A DNA stretch of 64,000 nucleotides from Paenibacillus silvisoli (GTDB lineage Bacteria; Bacillota; Bacilli; Paenibacillales; Paenibacillaceae): positions 1,579,001 to 1,643,000 of the forward strand of contig NZ_CP133017.1 of NCBI RefSeq assembly GCF_030866765.1, read 5' to 3'. The notes below the pieces were generated by a model that saw only the letters and a list, made by a program, of their open reading frames with translations, was not told the origin of the DNA and did no database searches. Below are positions 50,590 through 51,119 of this stretch, in pieces. The stretch's first letter is position 1. Each line of letters begins with the position of its first letter. The position numbers were made by a program, and so were the translations under genes.

Positions 50590-51119
50590 ACTGAACGTAC
50601 GAAAAGTAGCTCTCAGCGTCGAAAACGAGCGGAATTGCTGCTGAGAGCACGAAATGATGACTCAGGCACTCAAACTAACCTAGAATCCTCCGTTCCTGCG
50701 GCTGAGAGCGCGAAAAAATGCTCTTGGCGCCGAAAACGAGCGAAAATACTGCTGAGAGCACGAAATGATGCACTCAGGCACTCAAACTAACCTAGAATCC
50801 TCCGTTCCTGCGGCTGAGAGCGCGAAAAAATGCTCTTGGCGACGAAAACGAGCGAAAATACTGCTCAGAGCACGAAATGATGCACTCAGGTACTCAAACT
50901 ACCAAGAATCCTCCGTTCCTGCAGCTGAGAGCAAGAAAAGCTGCTTTCGGCCGCGAAAACGAGCGAAATTGTGGTTGAGAGCACGAAATGATGCACTCAG
51001 GCACTCAAACTAACCATGAATCCTCCGTTCCTGCAGCTGAGAGCACGAATAGCTGCTCTCGGCCGCGAAAACGAGCGAAATTGTGGTTGAGAGCACGAAA
51101 TGATGCACTTAACCTTCAA
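50590..51119. repeat. Five-unit ~111-bp tandem array with internal 50/61-bp alternation
   Basis: No gene is seen here. The core GAAAACGAGCG starts at 50621, 50732, 50844, 50955 and 51067 (steps 111, 112, 111, 112). Within each unit, CTGAGAGCA/G-like boxes start at 50641, 50702, 50752, 50814, 50864, 50925, 50975, 51037 and 51087, so steps alternate 61 or 62 with exactly 50. Each box begins a weak dyad with a nearby CTCTTGGC- or ACTCAG-type partner. The units diverge by scattered substitutions. The array starts shortly after the nadE terminator and ends beside the DUF559 gene. Confidence 0.9.

Follow-up and report, generated by a model that had tools for sequence, protein, structure and literature searches.

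The 64,000-nt stretch of Paenibacillus silvisoli DNA analyzed here (contig NZ_CP133017.1, positions 1,579,001–1,643,000; hereafter the window) carries a tandem array of palindromes in the gap between nadE and a convergent open reading frame (ORF). Repeats are usually known by their letters; the trait conserved in the array and its relatives is length together with helical phase. The features of the locus are as follows, in window coordinates, the + strand of the array being the one with AAACTAACC and all A-tracts.

49667–50491, + strand: nadE, the left flanking gene
50501–50529, + strand: intrinsic terminator of nadE, upstream of the array
50590–51119, + strand: whole array, four complete A-L-B-S units (palindrome A, long linker L, palindrome B, short linker S) plus partial units at both ends
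50640–50667, + strand: palindrome A, copy 1; further copies start at 50751, 50863, 50974, and 51086
50668–50700, + strand: long linker L, copy 1, about 33 nt, holding CAAACTAACC
About 50779–50812, 50891–50923, and 51002–51035, + strand: further copies of long linker L
50701–50728, + strand: palindrome B, copy 1; further copies start at 50813, 50924, and 51036, with a partial copy at about 50608
50729–50750, + strand: short linker S, copy 1, 22 nt, CGAAAACGAGCGAAAA, with two A-tracts 10 bp apart
About 50841–50862, 50952–50973, and 51064–51085, + strand: further copies of short linker S
50640–50750, 50751–50862, 50863–50973, and 50974–51085, + strand: units of the array as found by covariance model (CM)
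51263–51760, − strand: right flanking ORF, convergent, so that the array lies between two convergent genes

Each unit is 111–113 bp long and runs in the order palindrome A, 33-nt linker, palindrome B, 22-nt linker. Tandem Repeats Finder places the array at 50609–51109 with a period of 112, 4.5 copies, 91% matches, and a score of 743. A first-pass annotation of the window had noticed nine boxes at alternating steps, and this holds: boxes of the form [CT]T[GC]AGAGC start at 50641, 50702, 50752, 50814, 50864, 50925, 50975, 51037, and 51087, stepping 61, 50, 62, 50, 61, 50, 62, and 50, and the rest of the 64-kb window has no box of this form. In each case the box forms the 5′ arm of a palindrome of 28 nt, and linkers of 22 and 33 nt alternate between the palindromes. 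The statement in the annotation that the array is neither coding nor a CRISPR holds as well: 112 is not divisible by 3 and a conserved frame is absent, and the linkers repeat from unit to unit.

The same annotation had made its view of the spacing depend on whether lags of 50 and 60–62 recur in other intergenic regions of the genome, and both lags are indeed enriched there. In an 864-kb sample of the genome, half of whose regions were picked for holding arrays, 63 of the 324 spacings between adjacent intergenic palindromes fall at 50–52 bp and 33 at 61–62 bp over a background of about three per bin elsewhere. This spectrum, which depends on no model of the unit, has a further peak at 40–41 bp and a best period of 10.4 bp. 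The same steps, and sometimes one of 72, are retained in mosaic clusters, where the stems of adjacent palindromes are unrelated. One such cluster lies in the window itself, with spacings of 49–51 and a long linker of the AAACTAACC type in reverse complement:

7049–7440, − strand: second cluster, a mosaic of unlike palindromes of the types GAGCGTCGG, GAGAGTCGG, TAACGGACA, AATAGCGG, and AGCGG/AAAGCGG

Because the palindrome arms vary, a strict pattern (CTGAGAG...CTCTCAG) finds just six sites, and CMs were used instead. The model was built on 19 units, and up to 150 candidates per genome were scored, so that high counts are lower bounds. A looser scan for chains of palindromes gave 2117 chains, mostly noise, and CM-anchored units were used in its place. 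In the own genome the model finds 72 units; in six other genomes of the genus it finds 84, 13, at least 139, at least 107, at least 146, and at least 117. Among the CM-found units of these seven genomes, which outside the own genome were picked with models favouring these lengths, centre spacings are mostly 50–51 and 61–62; edge to edge, the short linker measures 22 nt in 101/109 cases and the long linker 33 nt in 88/125, with 119/125 within 1 nt of that length. The linker lengths are the same whether the palindromes have 28 nt (own genome, G018, and G001) or 29 nt (G014 and G003). On the other hand, variable positions of the long linker show 33% identity between species against 27% expected from composition; substitutions are thus saturated while the lengths are not.

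The seven carriers are among 22 genomes of the genus; with the CM no units were found in the 15 further Paenibacillus genomes, nor any match in the sampled genomes of other genera of the family. On the nadE tree the carriers form one side of a branch (support 74/76), and 0/500 shuffles are as clustered. An exact pattern, searched in 84,980 species genomes, occurs in Paenibacillus alone (sp. CF384, sp. OV219, lignilyticus, and taihuensis). A search with the window's own DNA finds 15 places in the own genome and matches in 6/39 genomes, own included, those in the other five being weak (one to six each). Set against the 13 to at least 146 units that the structural model finds in each of six genomes, this means that sequence-based repeat searches can miss a conserved element. 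As a side observation, the seven carrier genomes (L044–L050) also have a second, divergent nadE of 43–47% identity, and the other 15 genomes of the genus give a single nadE match each.

The helical phase is visible in the A-tracts. Relative to the centre of palindrome A they lie at 0, +20, +30, +62, +82, +93, and +112, and they are confined to one strand, on which TTT reaches at most 7%; in the array next to nadE they stand at 0, 2.0, 6.05, 8.0, 8.9, and 10.9 turns. Since the A-tracts fall at whole multiples of about 10.25 bp, the 111–113 bp of the unit correspond to 11 helical turns and the 50/61 steps to five and six turns. Consistently, AA power is 1.93 at harmonic 11 of the unit and 0.24–0.44 at harmonics 8–10 and 12–14. 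When compared with linker shuffles in which the lengths were kept, phase coherence is 0.82 vs. 0.47 (standard deviation 0.04) for G014/G003, 0.73 vs. 0.34 (0.08) for G018/G011/G001, and 0.64 vs. 0.45 (0.07) for the own genome. The A-tract vector is 11.1 in the arrays and 5.3 in intergenic controls. The arrays thus have the defining property of phased A-tract curved DNA, namely, A-tracts in phase with the helical period.

Furthermore, a search across the order revealed a second lineage of arrays, in a different family; a model built for this lineage matches 11/30 genomes of the genus concerned. Its linkers are unrelated to those of Paenibacillus (S: CGCCGGAAAAGTAGCAAAGTGTT; L: GAAGGATGCTTGTTAACCGACAAATGTAT) and have the same lengths. 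A-tracts of the second lineage are found at 0, 4.0, 6.05, 8.1, 9.0, and 11.0 turns, so that the tract of the long linker sits at turn 4 instead of turns 2–3: it has moved two turns along and kept its phase. In further dialects of this lineage the strongest AAA period is 10.2–10.3 bp in five of six loci (scan from 7 to 16). A separate stem dialect, with GAGAGGTCC and GAGCGGTCG alternating, is seen at L239:3632–4096, in a second-lineage genome that also has the GAGAAGTCC type.

These data bear on the earlier proposal that the spacing is either selected or set by the copying mechanism. Unequal crossing-over or slippage would copy any unit, and a fixed spacing would then be no more than an inherited unit length; indeed, units within an array are homogenized, with an identity of about 0.85. 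However, the linker lengths of 22 and 33 nt are seen again in mosaic clusters that are not homologous and in arrays whose linkers are saturated; they accompany palindromes of both 28 and 29 nt, and they return in the second lineage, where the linker sequences are different. A neutral process does not give substitutions without indels, so that this explanation is already contradicted and is extremely improbable. Copying therefore accounts for the homogeneity within an array and not for the recurring lengths. The spacing is under selection, because the 22/33-nt linkers recur in seven species despite saturated variable positions, and because the lengths stay the same with either palindrome size and in a second lineage of unrelated linkers. 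The palindromes and the phased A-tracts, neither of which the annotation had noticed, suggest a reason why it is selected.

The arrays have a preferred place in the genome. Their flanks were called with an ad hoc gene finder based on codon usage, which gave both flanking genes for 72 arrays: 41/72 lie between convergent genes (background gaps, 95/528), 30/72 in tandem contexts, and only 1/72 in divergent gaps (background, 127/528). In ten cases with both flanks common to species, the orientation of the array is the same, and none is flipped on both flanks. For example, an array lies downstream of nadE in the same orientation in four related genomes, while none is present there in the closest sister, G007. 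Identity between units is 0.56–0.80 for orthologous arrays and 0.58–0.69 for non-orthologous arrays of different species. Position and orientation are thus kept between species while the letters turn over, and arrays at an equal chromosomal place in different species have a common geometry and little common sequence.

This history is difficult to reconcile with selfish or transposable palindromes of the REP/REPIN kind, moved by a putative single-strand transposase that would recognize the spacing. Such elements would explain the many dispersed copies, the species-specific stem dialects, the location at 3′ ends, and the restriction to certain clades. Nevertheless, positions and orientation common to species point to old, vertically inherited sites, and single-strand recognition does not need helical phasing. 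A Y1/RAYT-type transposase (PF01797) has no match in the complete own genome, whereas 5/14 control genomes have one, and no phage or plasmid matches the arrays. We therefore regard a selfish origin as very unlikely. Membership in the REP/RAYT system was rejected on the lack of this transposase and of the GTAG tag: in the unit alignments of the first and second lineages, neither stem foot carries a conserved GTAG or CGTC.

At the level of the palindrome, inner-stem arm positions covary (z of 4–11 against shuffles), which could come from cruciform or hairpin formation in DNA or from symmetric contacts of a dimer. It might also come from RNA: the arrays may form hairpins in transcripts, with A-rich single-stranded linkers, and act as 3′-UTR stabilizers, attenuators, or structured noncoding RNA. 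The position of the arrays at the 3′ ends of genes and their mild sense bias agree with this, as does the folding of the array RNA, which is stronger than that of shuffles (z of −3.6). However, G-U pairs are not favoured over A-C in the arms (110 vs. 141 when collapsed per array; 98 vs. 179 raw), so there is no sign of one strand acting as RNA. An intrinsic terminator stands between gene and array in 27/59 and 21/53 cases, compared with 8/59 and 2/53 in opposite-strand controls, so arrays often lie beyond the end of the transcript predicted for the gene; in the window, the terminator at 50501–50529 puts the array outside the predicted nadE mRNA. Arrays in tandem contexts take both orientations (18 vs. 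12, not significant), Rfam 15 gives no match in the window that reaches a family's gathering score and only sub-threshold ones at four loci with related arrays, and the 10.25-bp phasing of A-tracts, least of all an in-phase shift by two turns, has no reason in single-stranded RNA. An RNA-level element is thus distinctly unlikely. The arrays were also considered as intrinsic terminators themselves and rejected, as they lack the GC-rich hairpin with a direct T-run; terminators inside arrays number 0/59 on the + strand and 6/53 on the − strand, and the nadE terminator is separate.

Alternatively, the palindromes may be bound by a dimeric protein with sequence specificity (as sites of a regulator or as parS-like sites), with helical spacing for cooperativity and arm symmetry from dimer contacts. 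An outer half-site, GCTGAG/CTCAGC, is conserved, half-site centres are about 20, 30, and 41 bp apart (close to two, three, and four turns), and the palindromes are helically spaced. A fixed specificity, however, does not predict inner arms that differ widely within one genome and yet stay complementary, and the arrays avoid promoters, as seen in the single divergent gap among 72. Such sites are a rather unlikely explanation.

The geometry and the phase point to duplex DNA as the level of action, and the location and build resemble Escherichia coli BIME-2. We give about an even chance to the reading of the array as a structural element of duplex DNA, in which phased curvature and palindromes work together in the way of BIME-2. 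In such an element, with a unit of 11 helical turns and palindrome centres five and six turns apart, the one-strand A-tracts of palindrome centres and linkers (turns 0, 2, 3, 6, 8, and 9) would curve the DNA in one plane, and the palindromes would be presented on one face of the curve. An architectural or topological protein might then dock on the array or wrap it, candidates being an HU- or Lrp-type nucleoid protein or, by analogy with BIME-2, gyrase. The palindromes may be extruded as cruciforms, and the array may act as a buffer or insulator of supercoils from one transcription unit to the next. Unequal recombination or slippage would homogenize each array, and selection would hold the lengths and the phase.

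BIME-2 elements are bound and cleaved by DNA gyrase (PMC2817692; PMC6463007). Like them, the arrays described here are extragenic, tandem, species-specific, and homogenized, and consist of regularly spaced palindromes. BIME units likewise alternate two inter-palindrome linkers, so the alternating linkers are a further property shared with REP/BIME elements. Differences are that the present arrays have neither the 5′-GTAG tag nor a RAYT, belong to a different phylum, and show exact 22- and 33-nt linkers, A-tracts that keep to one strand at a phase of about 10.25 bp, and a geometry that outlasts the sequence. The GTAG and CGTC super-families of REP are short stem-loop repeats with many extragenic copies and stem dialects with compensatory changes, the former in Proteobacteria, Cyanobacteria, Chloroflexi, and the PVC group, the latter in Proteobacteria, Chlorobi, Bacteroidetes, Spirochaetes, and Thermotogae; the survey names neither Firmicutes nor Paenibacillus (PMC3733652). 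Copies, dialects, and compensatory changes are alike in our arrays, and the tags are absent. A-tracts at the helical period have been tied by comparative work to DNA-bridging nucleoid proteins (PMC3940949). Those signals share the helical repetition of A-tracts, but they are diffuse and genome-wide, whereas here the tracts lie within discrete palindrome arrays of a fixed 11-turn unit. Pneumococcal BOX elements are Gram-positive intergenic repeats with tandem boxB modules and palindromic structure (PMC3049150). They resemble the arrays in being intergenic, modular in tandem, and palindromic; BOX elements themselves have A-B-C modules, terminal inverted repeats, and target duplications and are transcribed. 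To our knowledge, no helical ruler is known for BOX. A description of this array family was not found in the open-access literature searched, and an earlier report elsewhere is possible.

Several points weigh against a structural element of duplex DNA. Arm covariation means that pairing matters, and curvature of the duplex alone has no need of pairing. The curvature predicted with Bolshoy wedge parameters is 48 degrees per 110 bp, only moderately more than the 38 degrees of other intergenic DNA. The phase test in the own genome alone is modest, at about 2.6 standard deviations, and phase coherence in G007 alone, with three arrays, is not significant. Most of the units come from CMs that favour the observed lengths, although the model-free spectrum of the own genome agrees with them. 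A mild sense bias toward the nearest gene end (37:20, p = 0.03, orthologues collapsed) would also fit a role in RNA. Supercoil buffering, finally, is proposed from location and by analogy.

The duplex-DNA reading can be taken further. Tentatively, and as something we consider possible rather than probable, the array may be a sequence-independent ruler of DNA: an element defined by geometry alone, which stays at fixed chromosomal places across the species of the clade as its letters are replaced, recurs with equal geometry in a second family, and is read by a putative wrapping or bridging nucleoid protein or a topoisomerase that would organize the DNA between convergent genes. The data suggest that the cell reads DNA shape rather than sequence at the arrays. 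The old question of whether intrinsic DNA shape organizes the chromosome and manages supercoils between convergent genes thereby becomes testable by single-base changes in the linkers.

Further tandem classes were seen as well. At L071:11170–11745, a 122-bp class is composed of 50 + 72, i.e., the same ruler with a long step one helical turn longer. Palindromes of the GTTTGACTTCGTCAAAC type make up separate arrays whose unit of 41 bp is nearly four helical turns (L073:15839–15998, L077:11030–11184, L078:13159–13400, and L080:13002–13082), and those of the TGTACGAAAAATCGTACA type make up arrays whose unit is 52 bp, nearly five turns, or a multiple of 52 bp (L060:18477–18714, L064:19530–19659, L069:16576–16854, and L078:2324–2673). 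A tandem family of 51–52 bp on GAGGTAACAGTTACC-type motifs occurs at L058:5501–5643, L061:16549–16775, L080:9423–9554, L082:9015–9132, and L083:2870–3060.
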